Source: Candidatus Bipolaricaulota bacterium
GTDB taxonomy: Bacteria > Bipolaricaulota > Bipolaricaulia > RBG-16-55-9 > DRXL01
NCBI GenBank assembly: GCA_025060395.1
Contig: JANXCC010000002.1
Coordinates: 1-64,000 of the forward strand
DNA: 64,000 bases
Reading direction: 5' to 3'
The position numbers and the translations under genes are program-made. This document shows positions 33,338-41,961 of the stretch, one piece after another. Position 1 is the stretch's first letter, and every line of letters starts with the position of its first letter. The notes below the pieces were generated by a model, which worked only from the letters and a program-made list of their open reading frames with translations, had not been told where the DNA came from and did not search any database.

Positions 33338-35740
33338 CTAGGCCGTTAGACTGAGCTTCTCCCGCGCCAGCTCCTTCTCTTTCTCCGCGACTAAGAGCCG
33401 TGTCTTGATCACCGTATCGGGATTGAGCGAGATGCTGTCAATCCCACATTCTACTAAGAATTCCGCGAACTCCGGGAAATCTGACGGCGCTTGTCCGCAG
33501 ATCCCGATCTTGCGCCCCTTCCGATGCGCTACGGCAATGACATGCTTGACGAGACGCTTCACGGCTGCGTTGCGCTCATCGTAGATGTGCGCAACTAATT
33601 CTGAGTCGCGATCCAACCCGAGAGTTAACTGAGTTAGATCGTTGCTCCCAATCGAAAAGCCGTCGAAGATCTCGGCAAATTCTTCAGCTAAGATCACGTT
33701 ACTGGGAATCTCGCACATCACGTAGACTTCCAAGTTATTTTCTCCCTGGCGTAGCCCAAACTCCGCCATCGTCTCGATTACTCTCTTCCCTTCTTCTGGA
33801 GTGCGACAGAACGGAATCATCACTTTAATATTTGTCAAGCCCATCTCGTCGCGGGCTTTCTTGATAGCTTGGCATTCGAGCCCGAACGCGTCTTTGTACT
33901 TGGGATCATAGTAGCGCGACGCGCCGCGCCAGCCGATCATCGGGTTCGATTCCGTCGGCTCGTAGAGCACACCACCAATTAAGCTAGCGTACTCATTGCT
34001 CTTAAAATCAGAGAGTCTCACGATCACGTCGTTGGGCCAGAAGGCCGCGGCAATCTTGGCGACCCCCGATGCAAGCTTGTCTACAAAGAACTGGGCTTTG
34101 TCGGAGTAGCCCAGGGTGCGCTCGTCTATCTGTTGCACGATCTGGGCGATCTGTGGGTCGTGGGCCGCGCGAGCCTTGAGCTGCTCATATTCGATCAGGG
34201 CTTTGGGATGAATCCCGATGTGCGAGCTGATGATAAACTCTTCGCGCGCTAACCCTACGCCGTCGTTGGGGATACGAGCTTGAGCAAAAGCTGTCTCCGG
34301 GATGCCCACGTTCATCATGATCTTGGTGCGCGTTCTGGGGAGCTGCGCTACGTCAACCCGATCAACTCGGAACTTCAATCGTCCGGCGAAGACCCGCCCT
34401 TCGCCCTGGGAGCAGTCTACGGTAATCTCTTGACCGGTTTGGATCTTCTGCATAGCCCCCTCAGCCCCGATGACACAGGGAATCCCCAATTCGCGGGAGA
34501 TGATCGCGGCATGGCACGTCCTCCCCCCGCGCTCGGTCACAATCGCCGACGCGATCTTCATGATGGGTTCCCAGTCGGGGTCGGTCATCTCCGTCACTAG
34601 GACTTCGCCGGGGCGGAAGCGCCCAATCTCTGAGACGTCACGGATGACATGGGCAGGGCCTTGGCCGATCTTGCTGCCCACGGGTTCGCCGCGCACCAGA
34701 AGCTTTCCGGATTCTTCGAGCACATAATTTTCTAGAGTGCTTGCGCTCTGGACCCCATGGACGGTCTCCGGGCGAGCTTGCACGATGAACAGCCTATGGC
34801 TGATCCCATCTTTGGCCCACTCGATGTCCATGGGACGCCCATAGTGCGCTTCGATCTGAAGAGCCCACCGAGCTAACTGTAGAACCTCATCATCGCTGAT
34901 GGAGAAACGCTGCTGTTCTTCTGGGCTGACGCGCTCTTCGCGCAGGGCGCCGTTGGCGCAGACGAGTTTCTTCTGCTTGCTGCCCAGACGTTTCTCTATG
35001 ATAGCTTGATAGCCCTTTTTCAGTCCCGGCTTGAAGACGTAGAACTGATCAGGGTTGACTCGACCCTGCACCACAAGCTCGCCAAAGCCGTAAGAAGACG
35101 TGACATAGACGACATTCTCCGCGCCGGATTCGGGGTCAATCGTGAAGAGCACCCCAGAAGCAGCCAAGTCCGAGCGCACCATCTGTTGCACCACCACGGC
35201 GATATTGACGTCGCCGTTGGTGAAGCCGCGGTCACGACGATACGAAATAGCGCGATCCGTAAAGAGGCTAGCAAAGCAGCGGCGCACGCGATCTAACAGC
35301 ATCTCTTCGGTTGTGACATTGAGGAACGTATCGTGCTGGCCGGCGAACGAGTGCTCTTCGGAGTCTTCTATCGTCGCCGAGGAGCGCACAGCGACGTCCG
35401 TGCTGCCGGTCTTCTTGGTAAGCTCGCGATACGCGCGCCGGATCTCGCCCTCAAGATCAGAGGGCAATGGGGTGTTGATAATAAGATTTCTGATTCTCTG
35501 CCCATATTCAGCGAGCATCTGGACGTTCTGCGTATCGAGCTGGGCCATGAGGGTCTGGATGCGAGTATCCAGCCCAGCGCGCTCCAAAAACGCGCGGAAC
35601 GCTTCAGCGGTGACGACGAAGCCATCAGGCACGGGGATCCCTTTGAGGACCTTGCGCATCTCCCCTAGGGATGCTCCCTTTCCCCCAACCAAGCTGACAT
35701 CAGCTCGCCCTACCTCATCCAACCAGGCGATGGTCTTCAC
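33338..35740 (-). CDS. ppsA: Phosphoenolpyruvate synthase
   Basis: VSLVGGKGASLGEM, TERGGRTCHAAIISRELGIPCVIG, FSIGSNDLTQLTLGLDRDS, GICGQAPSDFPEFAEFLVECGIDSISLNPD. GTG start at 35740 preceded by AAGGAGG. Confidence 0.93.
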   Translation of the reverse strand: MKTIAWLDEVGRADVSLVGGKGASLGEMRKVLKGIPVPDGFVVTAEAFRAFLERAGLDTRIQTLMAQLDTQNVQMLAEYGQRIRNLIINTPLPSDLEGEIRRAYRELTKKTGSTDVAVRSSATIEDSEEHSFAGQHDTFLNVTTEEMLLDRVRRCFASLFTDRAISYRRDRGFTNGDVNIAVVVQQMVRSDLAASGVLFTIDPESGAENVVYVTSSYGFGELVVQGRVNPDQFYVFKPGLKKGYQAIIEKRLGSKQKKLVCANGALREERVSPEEQQRFSISDDEVLQLARWALQIEAHYGRPMDIEWAKDGISHRLFIVQARPETVHGVQSASTLENYVLEESGKLLVRGEPVGSKIGQGPAHVIRDVSEIGRFRPGEVLVTEMTDPDWEPIMKIASAIVTERGGRTCHAAIISRELGIPCVIGAEGAMQKIQTGQEITVDCSQGEGRVFAGRLKFRVDRVDVAQLPRTRTKIMMNVGIPETAFAQARIPNDGVGLAREEFIISSHIGIHPKALIEYEQLKARAAHDPQIAQIVQQIDERTLGYSDKAQFFVDKLASGVAKIAAAFWPNDVIVRLSDFKSNEYASLIGGVLYEPTESNPMIGWRGASRYYDPKYKDAFGLECQAIKKARDEMGLTNIKVMIPFCRTPEEGKRVIETMAEFGLRQGENNLEVYVMCEIPSNVILAEEFAEIFDGFSIGSNDLTQLTLGLDRDSELVAHIYDERNAAVKRLVKHVIAVAHRKGRKIGICGQAPSDFPEFAEFLVECGIDSISLNPDTVIKTRLLVAEKEKELAREKLSLTA

Positions 35741-35759: not shown

Positions 35760-35772
35760 GTCACTTTGTGAA
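35760..35772. promoter_or_regulatory. Operator-like palindrome copy 1
   Basis: GTCACTTTGTGAA, 12/13 match to TTCACTTTGTGAA; near the predicted ppsA +1. Confidence 0.65.
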
Positions 35773-35780
35773 GTGCTTAT

Positions 35781-35810
35781 AGTATAAAATATTCACAAAG
35801 TGAAAATCAA
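35781..35810 (-). promoter_or_regulatory. ppsA promoter
   Basis: Reverse strand TTGATT, 18 nt, TATACT; the spacer contains palindrome copy 2. Confidence 0.65.
35792..35804. promoter_or_regulatory. Operator-like palindrome copy 2 (perfect)
   Basis: TTCACAAAGTGAA. Confidence 0.7.
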
Positions 35811-35897
35811 GCATCTGGAAGGGCTCTTGCTATCGCGAATATTTGCGGGGGACCCAGGCCGTAGAAGCTCGATCACCGAGGCTTTCCTCTCCTGTTC

Positions 35898-35910
35898 TTG
35901 ACAAAGTGAA
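35898..35910. promoter_or_regulatory. Operator-like palindrome copy 3
   Basis: TTGACAAAGTGAA, 12/13 match; overlaps the -35 of the HTH-GalU gene. Confidence 0.65.
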
Positions 35911-35927
35911 TATCTGCGAGCTAAACT
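35898..35927 (+). promoter_or_regulatory. Promoter of the HTH-GalU-like gene
   Basis: TTGACA, 18 nt, TAAACT. Confidence 0.65.
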
Positions 35928-35948: not shown

Positions 35949-37097
35949 ATGGCTGCCTACGATTTAGAAAGGCTGGCCCTCTTGTTGCAAGGGTATCGCA
36001 AGCGGCTGAACCTTACGAAGGCGCAGCTGGCGCAGCGCGCTGGGATCTCAGCCAGCTTCGTGACGTATATTGAGCAGGGGCAGCGCCGACCCTCTTTACC
36101 CATGCTCACGCGCCTGATGCAGGCCCTCGACTTGACAGACTCAGAGAAGAGAGGATTGCTTCGAGCAGCTGGGTATCATTCCCTGGGAGAGCTGACGCCG
36201 TGCCTGAGCGATCTGAGCGAGCAACTTGCGGAGCTGCCCCAGCCGGAACGCGACGAGTTGCTTGAGGAGTTCTCGCGGATGATCGGGCGGTGGCGCGAGC
36301 TACGCCGCAAGCGCGTACGCCGCGTCGTCATCCCCATCGCGGGCTGGCAGCCGCGTCTGCTCTCCCCCGAGCAGTTAGGCAAGATGCTCCGTCCTGCTCT
36401 GGAAGAGACGGCCCTGGCAGGCTTAACTGAAGTCGTCTTGGTGCTTGCGCCTGGCAAATCCGTTCCCCTCTTGAAGCTTCCGCGCGGGCTGAAAGTGCGC
36501 ACCGTCGTGCAGGAGCCCCAATTGGGGCTCGGCCATGCTATCTTGACGACCCACGGGGTTGTGGGAGACGAGCCCTTCGCGGTCATCCTGCCCGATGATA
36601 TCTTGCTCGGGGAAGGCCGCGAGTGCTTGCGCCAGATGCTCACTCTTTATGAGCGATATCGATGCAGCATGTTGGCGGTGACGGAGGTCGAAGGGGCTGC
36701 AGATCTTAAAAATTACGGGGTTGCTCACTTGGGCGATCCCTTGGCTGAGAACGTCTATCTCGTCCAAGGGCTGCAAGAGAAGCCGACGAGAGGACGACGC
36801 AGTGGGCTGACTATCGTCGGTCGTTATGTGCTGACCCCCCAGGTCTTTGAGGCCCTCCAAGCGACTACTCCTGATAAGAACAACGAGATCCAATTGACCG
36901 ATGCGCTCAATCTCTTATTGCGCCGCCAGCGGATTAGCGCGTTTGTCTATCGGGCGCAGCTCTTCCGGGTAACGCCGATTAAAATGCTCTTAGAGCAACT
37001 CATTGATGCACTGGACGAGTCGCACCCCGAGCGCCTCGAACAAGCGATGCAGATTACTAAAGAGGCCCTGCAGGCCCTGACGGCCCTGCGGGCCTAG
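35949..37097 (+). CDS. XRE-family HTH regulator fused to a GalU-like sugar nucleotidyltransferase domain
   Basis: HTH: LLQGYRKRLNLTKAQLAQRAGISASFVTYIEQGQRRPSLPMLTRLMQAL; GalU-like: VVQEPQLGLGHAILTTHGVVGDEPFAVILPDDIL...VGRYVLTPQVFEALQATTPDKNNEIQLTDALNLLL. GxGTR...PK catalytic loop not seen. Confidence 0.85.
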   Translation: MAAYDLERLALLLQGYRKRLNLTKAQLAQRAGISASFVTYIEQGQRRPSLPMLTRLMQALDLTDSEKRGLLRAAGYHSLGELTPCLSDLSEQLAELPQPERDELLEEFSRMIGRWRELRRKRVRRVVIPIAGWQPRLLSPEQLGKMLRPALEETALAGLTEVVLVLAPGKSVPLLKLPRGLKVRTVVQEPQLGLGHAILTTHGVVGDEPFAVILPDDILLGEGRECLRQMLTLYERYRCSMLAVTEVEGAADLKNYGVAHLGDPLAENVYLVQGLQEKPTRGRRSGLTIVGRYVLTPQVFEALQATTPDKNNEIQLTDALNLLLRRQRISAFVYRAQLFRVTPIKMLLEQLIDALDESHPERLEQAMQITKEALQALTALRA

Positions 37098-37150
37098 AAT
37101 CTCTTAGATGCTTGCACCATCATCGCCTAAGTGCTATCGTTGCTCTTACT

Positions 37151-37861
37151 ATGAATGTGATACGGTGCGAAGATCGCGAGGTTCATCCCCAAGTCCGCAC
37201 GCTGCGCGAGATGCAGTCGGTTGTCTTTGATAGAAGCTGGCTGCGCACTGCAGACTTAGATCAAGCTCTGTATTTGATGTACCGAGACTGCGTGCTCCCC
37301 GAAGATCGCGAGATCGCCCAGAAGCTCCAAGTGCGCTATGACATTACTGTGCTTCTGCCCGTGTGCTTGGGGCGCGAGCACAACAAGACGAAGGGCCACT
37401 ATCACTCCGAGTACCAGCCGGGGCTGCGCTACCCCGAACTCTATCAAGTTCTCGAGGGCGAAGCCCATGTACTCTTGCAGAAGCAATCTGGAGATACCGT
37501 CAGTGACGTTGTGCTCGTCATCGCCCACGAAGGAGAGATCGTGCTCGTGCCCCCCAATTACGGACACATCACGATCAACCCCACAGAAAAGATTTTAAAG
37601 ATGGCCAACTGGATCTCGACGAAAGTCCAGAGCTTCTACGAGCCCTTTGAGCAGAAAGGCGGCGGCGCATACTTCGAGCTACGCGATGGGCAGCTCATTG
37701 CCAATTCGCGCTACGGTGCGTTACCCCCATTGCGCGTCGTTTCGGCACGAGAATACCCGGAACTTGGGCTGCGCCACGGCCAGCCCATCTACGAGCTGAT
37801 TAAGACCCCGGCGCAACTACGATTTCTCAGCTATCCTGATGGACCTCTTCCCCTCCCTTGA
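37151..37861 (+). CDS. Cupin-type glucose-6-phosphate isomerase
   Basis: REHNKTKGHYHSEYQPGLRYPELYQVLEGEAHVLLQK; VPPNYGHITINPTEKILKMANWIS. Confidence 0.85.
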   Translation: MNVIRCEDREVHPQVRTLREMQSVVFDRSWLRTADLDQALYLMYRDCVLPEDREIAQKLQVRYDITVLLPVCLGREHNKTKGHYHSEYQPGLRYPELYQVLEGEAHVLLQKQSGDTVSDVVLVIAHEGEIVLVPPNYGHITINPTEKILKMANWISTKVQSFYEPFEQKGGGAYFELRDGQLIANSRYGALPPLRVVSAREYPELGLRHGQPIYELIKTPAQLRFLSYPDGPLPLP

Positions 37862-41190: not shown

Positions 41191-41961
41191 CTACAGCTCA
41201 TAGCGCTCGATGAGCTTCTTCTCTTCCCCGGCGATCTCCGCGCGAATCTCAAAGTACTCCGCAAGCCCAGAGTGCTTGAGCTTCTCTTTGAGAAGATTGT
41301 CTATCTGAAAGATCCCCGCGGAGTTGGACATCTTTATAGCGATACAGATGGGGCGCTTCTCGCCCTTGCGCAATTGTACGTCTTCTATAGCTAATGCTGA
41401 GACGGCATGAATGGTCATGGACCCTGCTTGAAATGGGATGCGCGCCCGCCCCTCTTCCATATCGAGAGCATCGGCGATCTTTAATACGCCGGCTTCGACC
41501 GTCAATGGCTCGATCTCGGTCTCATGGGCGTAGACCGCGTGCAGGACTTCTGCAGTGATGATTGCGCGCTCGCGCTCCGGATAGATATCTTTGAGAAGTT
41601 CAGGCAACAGATCCGCAGCGAGTGCGACGGAGAACGGCTCGTGATTCATACGATGGACAATGTGTCCGATGTCGTGCAGGCACGCCGCGAGAACTACTAT
41701 GACTTCGGCGTCGTCTTTGGTGAGCTTATGGTCTTTTTCGACGCTGGGCTGCACGCCTGCCTCGATGAGCATGCGCAGGATCTTGAGTGCAAGATTCGCG
41801 ACAATTCTGATATGCACGGGGCCGTGATCGTTGATCCCTAATCTGTCGATAGCGTTGACGTTCGAGCAGTACCAATAGGTGTTTAAAGTGACATTTTCGT
41901 TGATACGCGCGACAACGGCCTCGAGCTTCTTATTCTCTCGAACGGGAATATTGAGCGCCAT
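41191..41961 (-). CDS. HD-domain phosphohydrolase
   Basis: NDHGPVHIRIVANLALKIL, AACLHDIGHIVHRMNHE. Confidence 0.85.
   Translation of the reverse strand: MALNIPVRENKKLEAVVARINENVTLNTYWYCSNVNAIDRLGINDHGPVHIRIVANLALKILRMLIEAGVQPSVEKDHKLTKDDAEVIVVLAACLHDIGHIVHRMNHEPFSVALAADLLPELLKDIYPERERAIITAEVLHAVYAHETEIEPLTVEAGVLKIADALDMEEGRARIPFQAGSMTIHAVSALAIEDVQLRKGEKRPICIAIKMSNSAGIFQIDNLLKEKLKHSGLAEYFEIRAEIAGEEKKLIERYEL

Follow-up and report, generated by a model that had tools for sequence, protein, structure and literature searches.

Three palindromic operator-like sites at the divergent promoters of ppsA and a gene for an XRE-type protein with a degenerate GalU-like domain in Bipolaricaulota

The window (i.e., the whole 64,000-nucleotide stretch analyzed here), which belongs to a Candidatus Bipolaricaulota genome, contains the gene for phosphoenolpyruvate (PEP) synthase, ppsA (33338-35740, minus strand), which scored 1145.9 bits against TIGR01418 (cut-off 739.75). 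Divergent from it lies the gene of a likely regulator, HTH-GalU (35949-37097, plus strand), with Pfam matches to HTH_31, HTH_3 and NTP_transferase, which is followed by a possibly co-transcribed gene for a cupin-type glucose-6-phosphate isomerase (pgi, 37112-37861, plus strand; Pfam GPI, 128.8 bits). A consensus scan of the 208-bp region between ppsA and the HTH-GalU gene returned exactly two promoters, one per strand, where 0.1 were expected. The predicted ppsA promoter (35781-35810, minus strand) reads TTGATT-18-TATACT, with a -10 hexamer that is kept in five genomes, and the predicted HTH-GalU promoter (35898-35927, plus strand) reads TTGACA-18-TAAACT. Transcription of ppsA is expected to start near 35773-35775. 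Translation probably starts at the GTG at 35740, which is preceded by AAGGAGG (35753-35747) that is kept in relatives, rather than at the longer frame start at 35764.

Three copies of a 13-bp palindrome were found in this region. Site 2 (35792-35804) is a perfect copy, TTCACAAAGTGAA, with arms TTCAC and GTGAA flanking AAA, and takes up 13 of the 18 bases of the spacer between the -35 and -10 of ppsA. Site 1 (35760-35772) reads TTCACAAAGTGAC on the minus strand (12/13, one mismatch) and is located where ppsA transcription is expected to start, or immediately past that point, covering approximately the first transcript bases; with translation starting at the GTG at 35740, it would therefore fall in the leader, outside the coding region. 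Site 3 (35898-35910; TTGACAAAGTGAA, 12/13, one mismatch) overlaps the -35 of the HTH-GalU gene, with the TTGACA hexamer forming the beginning of the site. The one base that breaks the palindrome in site 3, a G in place of C, is the base required by the -35 hexamer and is shared by 7/7 genomes compared. A preliminary description of this DNA had already placed three copies over the two promoters, and this arrangement was confirmed: all three were verified in the sequence (13/13, 12/13 and 12/13), copy 2 in the ppsA spacer and copy 3 on the HTH-GalU -35 agree with the consensus promoter scan, and copy 1 falls approximately at or just past the expected +1 of ppsA. A Rex-type site was also considered and discarded, as the half-sites face the opposite way in Rex.

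Within the 64-kb window, no further match to the 13-mer with up to one mismatch exists beyond these three sites, and allowing two mismatches adds a single, intragenic match at 41282. Shuffling of the 64 kb gave an expectation of 0.84 matches at up to two mismatches, with none of 100 shuffles getting to four. Likewise, when the 208-bp intergenic region was shuffled 20,000 times, no shuffle contained more than one match at a tolerance of one mismatch, and a thrice-repeated 13-mer of whatever sequence was found in 0/150 shuffles of the same region.

Four public relatives (L030-L033) share the locus, with HTH-GalU identities of 82-86%. The intergenic regions of five same-genus genomes were aligned, and invariance was counted in ungapped columns only. 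The sites hold their promoter positions in all five genomes, in contrast to the divergent sequence that separates them, with invariant columns amounting to 12/13 for site 2, 12/13 for site 3 and 7/10 for site 1, compared to 1/23 for the stretch separating sites 2 and 3. For the three genomes with a long spacer, the corresponding values were 13/13 (site 2), 12/13 (site 3), 10/13 (site 1) and 19/87 (between sites 2 and 3). Site 1 of L031 has one clean half (TTCAC) and a degenerate other half. The distance between sites 1 and 2 is constant (32 bp) in all five genomes. Sites 2 and 3 are either 43 bp apart (two genomes) or 106-108 bp apart (three genomes). The observed spacings (32, 43/44 and 106-108 bp) approximate whole helical turns, and the short and long spacers differ by about six turns, which would leave all sites facing approximately the same side of the helix. 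Such same-face phasing suggests cooperative binding.

In the sister genus (G054, G055 and G056), HTH-GalU is encoded at 61-63% identity and its gene is not adjacent to ppsA. In G054, its divergent neighbor is a carboxyltransferase-like gene; the sequence upstream of the G055 gene is similar to that in G054, and the G056 gene is found behind a different gene that is acyl-CoA dehydrogenase-like by eye. No recognizable copy of the 13-mer is present in the vicinity of the HTH-GalU gene in this genus. At ppsA, however, the 13-mer is again positioned between -35 and -10 in both G054 (one mismatch) and G056 (perfect); TTGACA(A/G)AGTGAA occurs 44 bp upstream of it, and on the downstream side, at a distance of exactly 32 bp, there is a weak copy (9/13). 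As the site stays at ppsA while the HTH-GalU gene is unlinked, the operator follows ppsA and not the regulator gene. At these two loci (L077 in G056 and L089 in G054), the third operator is retained at a distance of 44 bp from site 2 despite the absence of a neighboring HTH-GalU gene. No convincing -10 was seen that could belong to a promoter diverging from ppsA, so that in these genomes the third operator may serve ppsA itself. The GTGAA halves are kept beyond the promoter hexamers in the five genomes as well as in the sister genus. Taken together, conservation across five genomes and the ppsA sites of two sister-genus genomes strongly support the earlier proposal of operators over both promoters. 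Autoregulation, which had also been proposed, fits the genus of the window, where site 3 lies at the regulator's own promoter, but not the sister genus, where no copy was found near the HTH-GalU gene.

Across 100 genomes of the phylum, HTH-GalU and ppsA are each present in eight, and both occur together in seven. Close PEP synthase homologues (E<=1e-100) were found in only 8/100 Bipolaricaulota genomes. A site is present at ppsA in all seven genomes that have both genes (7/7). In the genome with the eighth, more distant ppsA (G063), no HTH-GalU was detected and no site was found in the 350 bp upstream of ppsA, which is located directly behind a panB-like gene. This co-occurrence is weaker evidence than the counts imply, given the relatedness of the genomes and the incompleteness of several of them. 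As the system is confined to a single family, neither the co-occurrence nor the conservation described above represents independent events. The perfect 13-mer was found in only 6/100 genomes of the phylum, four times at the ppsA/HTH-GalU locus, once at ppsA of G056 and once in G048. The G048 copy was rejected as an operator, since it lies within a gene and G048 lacks both HTH-GalU and ppsA.

Pattern searches with reversed-pattern controls were used to count matches genome-wide. At up to two mismatches, the window's own genome contains 29 matches, compared to 17 for the reversed control; apart from sites 1-3, all those examined lie in open reading frames (one at the edge of a frame), and no conserved site was found upstream of another gene at this threshold. 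A free-center pattern (TTSAC-N3-GTSAA) matched at nine places, with the seven outside the ppsA/HTH-GalU locus again in open reading frames. The gene glnA of G049 was considered as a second target and dismissed, as six orthologues share only the TTGACAAA of the -35 and not GTGAA. A regulon of central-carbon genes, as contemplated in the preliminary description, is thus not borne out by scans at up to two mismatches or with a free center. Rather, the 13-mer looks like a local operator or switch, at a scan reach of two mismatches that weaker sites would escape.

The HTH-GalU protein comprises an XRE-type HTH domain (residues 8-67; 35970-36149, plus strand) and a GalU/RmlA-like domain without catalytic motifs (approximately residues 125-345; 36321-36983, plus strand). 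The HTH domain scored 51.6 bits against HTH_31 (cut-off 27) and 44.5 bits against HTH_3 (cut-off 23), and its core, SASFVTY, is identical in both genera. An AlphaFold model generated from five close sequences had a mean pLDDT of 48 and was confident in the HTH only. Residues 187-341 align to Helicobacter pylori GalU (PDB 3juj/3juk) with an E value of 1e-36. GxGTR, PKEMLP, FDVG and the other motifs of GalU (UTP-glucose-1-phosphate uridylyltransferase) have known enzymatic roles, and HTH-GalU retains LPDD (LxDD), EKP and EIQLTDA on the sugar-phosphate side, as well as GLGHA. In contrast, the GxGTR nucleotide loop and the PKEMLP lysine are lost in 8/8 HTH-GalU proteins, where WQPR replaces the loop and a deletion falls at the expected lysine (AGWQPRLLSP followed by a gap, compared to AGLGTRFLPATKAQPKEMLP in GalU-like proteins of the phylum), and the C-terminal metal-binding Asp (FDVG) is replaced by Arg (LFRVTP), also in 8/8. 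Relative to GalU, HTH-GalU has moreover gained an N-terminal HTH and does not reach the equivalog cut-off of TIGR01099 (144.8 bits vs 326.8). Membership among the GalU enzymes was therefore rejected on three tested features (score, nucleotide loop/lysine and C-terminal Asp). Loss of the catalytic motifs in all eight proteins points to a sensor rather than an enzyme, and the GalU-like domain is probably a retired enzyme kept for ligand sensing. As a separate observation, no protein above the TIGR01099 cut-off was found in the window's genome (G000) and nine family-level relatives (0/10 genomes); RmlA-like paralogues, e.g., G000:C86:36618, may supply sugar nucleotides.

On this basis, we consider it likely (probability of roughly 0.7) that HTH-GalU binds the 13-mer operators and represses ppsA and, in the window's genus, its own gene, with a sugar nucleotide or a sugar phosphate as the modulator. 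HTH-GalU would bind TTCAC-N3-GTGAA as a dimer or a larger oligomer. At ppsA, it would occupy site 2 between the -35 and -10 and site 1 at the transcript start, approximately three helical turns apart, and occupancy of both would block RNA polymerase. At its own promoter, HTH-GalU would cover the -35 via site 3, producing autorepression in the window's genus only. The GalU-like domain would most likely sense UDP-glucose, a dTDP-sugar or glucose-1-phosphate, such that the PEP synthase step would answer to the sugar end of the pathway. Gluconeogenesis is entered through PEP synthase and has sugar nucleotides as an end product, so that feedback would be the natural logic of such a circuit. The anatomy of the protein and the sites gives good support to the general working type, in which an HTH repressor has a sensor derived from an enzyme. 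We infer that HTH-GalU is the binder, that it binds cooperatively and that it represses, and likewise the ligand and the direction of its effect, with repression being read from the geometry of the sites only. A more specific version, in which an XRE HTH and a retired GalU/RmlA domain form a new type of one-component regulator that detects UDP-glucose or a related sugar nucleotide and exerts direct feedback on PEP synthase through a helically phased three-operator array, is tentative, and we would put it at a little under even odds.

The sites could instead be real operators that are bound by a different regulator, with HTH-GalU being a mere neighbor and perhaps itself a target. The sister genus lends this some weight, since sites persist there at ppsA without an adjacent HTH-GalU gene and the HTH-GalU promoter has no site. 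We nevertheless regard it as unlikely, as HTH-GalU has a DNA-binding domain and is divergent at the sites in five genomes, its HTH core is unchanged across both genera, and site and protein go together in 7/7 ppsA genomes with both being absent at the eighth ppsA. Less likely still, HTH-GalU could bind the sites but activate ppsA, or repress or activate depending on its ligand. The placements in the spacer, at the start site and on the -35 are typical of repressors, and the usual activator distance upstream of the ppsA -35 is free of sites, with the exception of site 3 in the short-spacer genomes; XRE proteins can, however, activate, and both predicted -35 hexamers are fairly near consensus, so that the regulatory effect is not readable from sequence alone. 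Finally, repeats without regulatory function (chance, a duplication leftover or AT-rich promoter sequence) are highly improbable given the shuffles of the 64 kb and of the intergenic region and the GTGAA halves kept past the promoter hexamers in five genomes and the sister genus, even though one copy overlaps a -35 hexamer, TTGACA, that is conserved in its own right and a similar -35 overlap upstream of glnA in G049 proved to be chance.

Regulation by HTH-GalU as proposed here has partial counterparts among known systems. Pseudomonas aeruginosa HigA is an XRE HTH repressor with the operator 5'-TTAAC GTTAA-3' (PMC6987408). HigA-like XRE (Cro/CI-like) repressors share with HTH-GalU the XRE HTH, a short inverted repeat on their own promoter and more than one close site; HTH-GalU differs in that its effector part is GalU-like and not an antitoxin, its main target would be a gluconeogenesis gene, and no toxin partner was seen. 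The enterobacterial NadR is an HTH fused to a nucleotidylyltransferase that exerts feedback on a biosynthetic pathway. The likeness to HTH-GalU lies in the combination of an HTH with a nucleotidylyltransferase-type domain and in pathway feedback, whereas NadR has the fold of an NMN adenylyltransferase and keeps its kinase, and HTH-GalU has a GalU/RmlA-type domain that looks catalytically dead. ROK, CggR/SorC, RpiR and NrtR proteins likewise join an HTH to a metabolic-enzyme fold reused as a metabolite sensor, often for central carbon genes, and resemble HTH-GalU in this reuse of an enzyme domain; to our knowledge, none of them pairs a GalU/RmlA fold with an XRE HTH. No description of an XRE-GalU regulator was found in the open-access literature searched, and an XRE HTH with a degenerate GalU domain was neither named among the Pfam/NCBIfam matches nor met in the PDB search. 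An HTH joined to a recycled enzyme fold is already known, and what appears to be new is the combination of XRE with a degenerate GalU/RmlA domain. If true, the GalU/RmlA fold would join the enzyme folds that have been recycled as metabolite sensors. The locus yields candidates for a regulator, its operator and its target. No described control of gluconeogenesis was found for this uncultured phylum, and the HTH-GalU protein, the 13-mer and the ppsA target are all small enough for in vitro work.

Two further observations concern the neighboring genes. The pgi gene adjoins HTH-GalU in the window, L030 and L032 and is separated from it in L031 and L033, where opposite-strand genes that are CopC/CopD-like by eye lie in between (L031:2982-5414 and L033:2491-4928). 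As these unrelated genes intervene in two relatives, co-regulation of pgi is not general. The ppsA gene of L030 (2144-5923, minus strand; CALLJK010000032.1, G053:C32) carries an in-frame insert of approximately 410 residues at GGRT^CHAAI, which starts with CFSGDTKILT, ends with VIVWN ahead of a Cys and is absent from the ppsA of the window. The insert, which lies at the catalytic-His motif, is very probably an intein.
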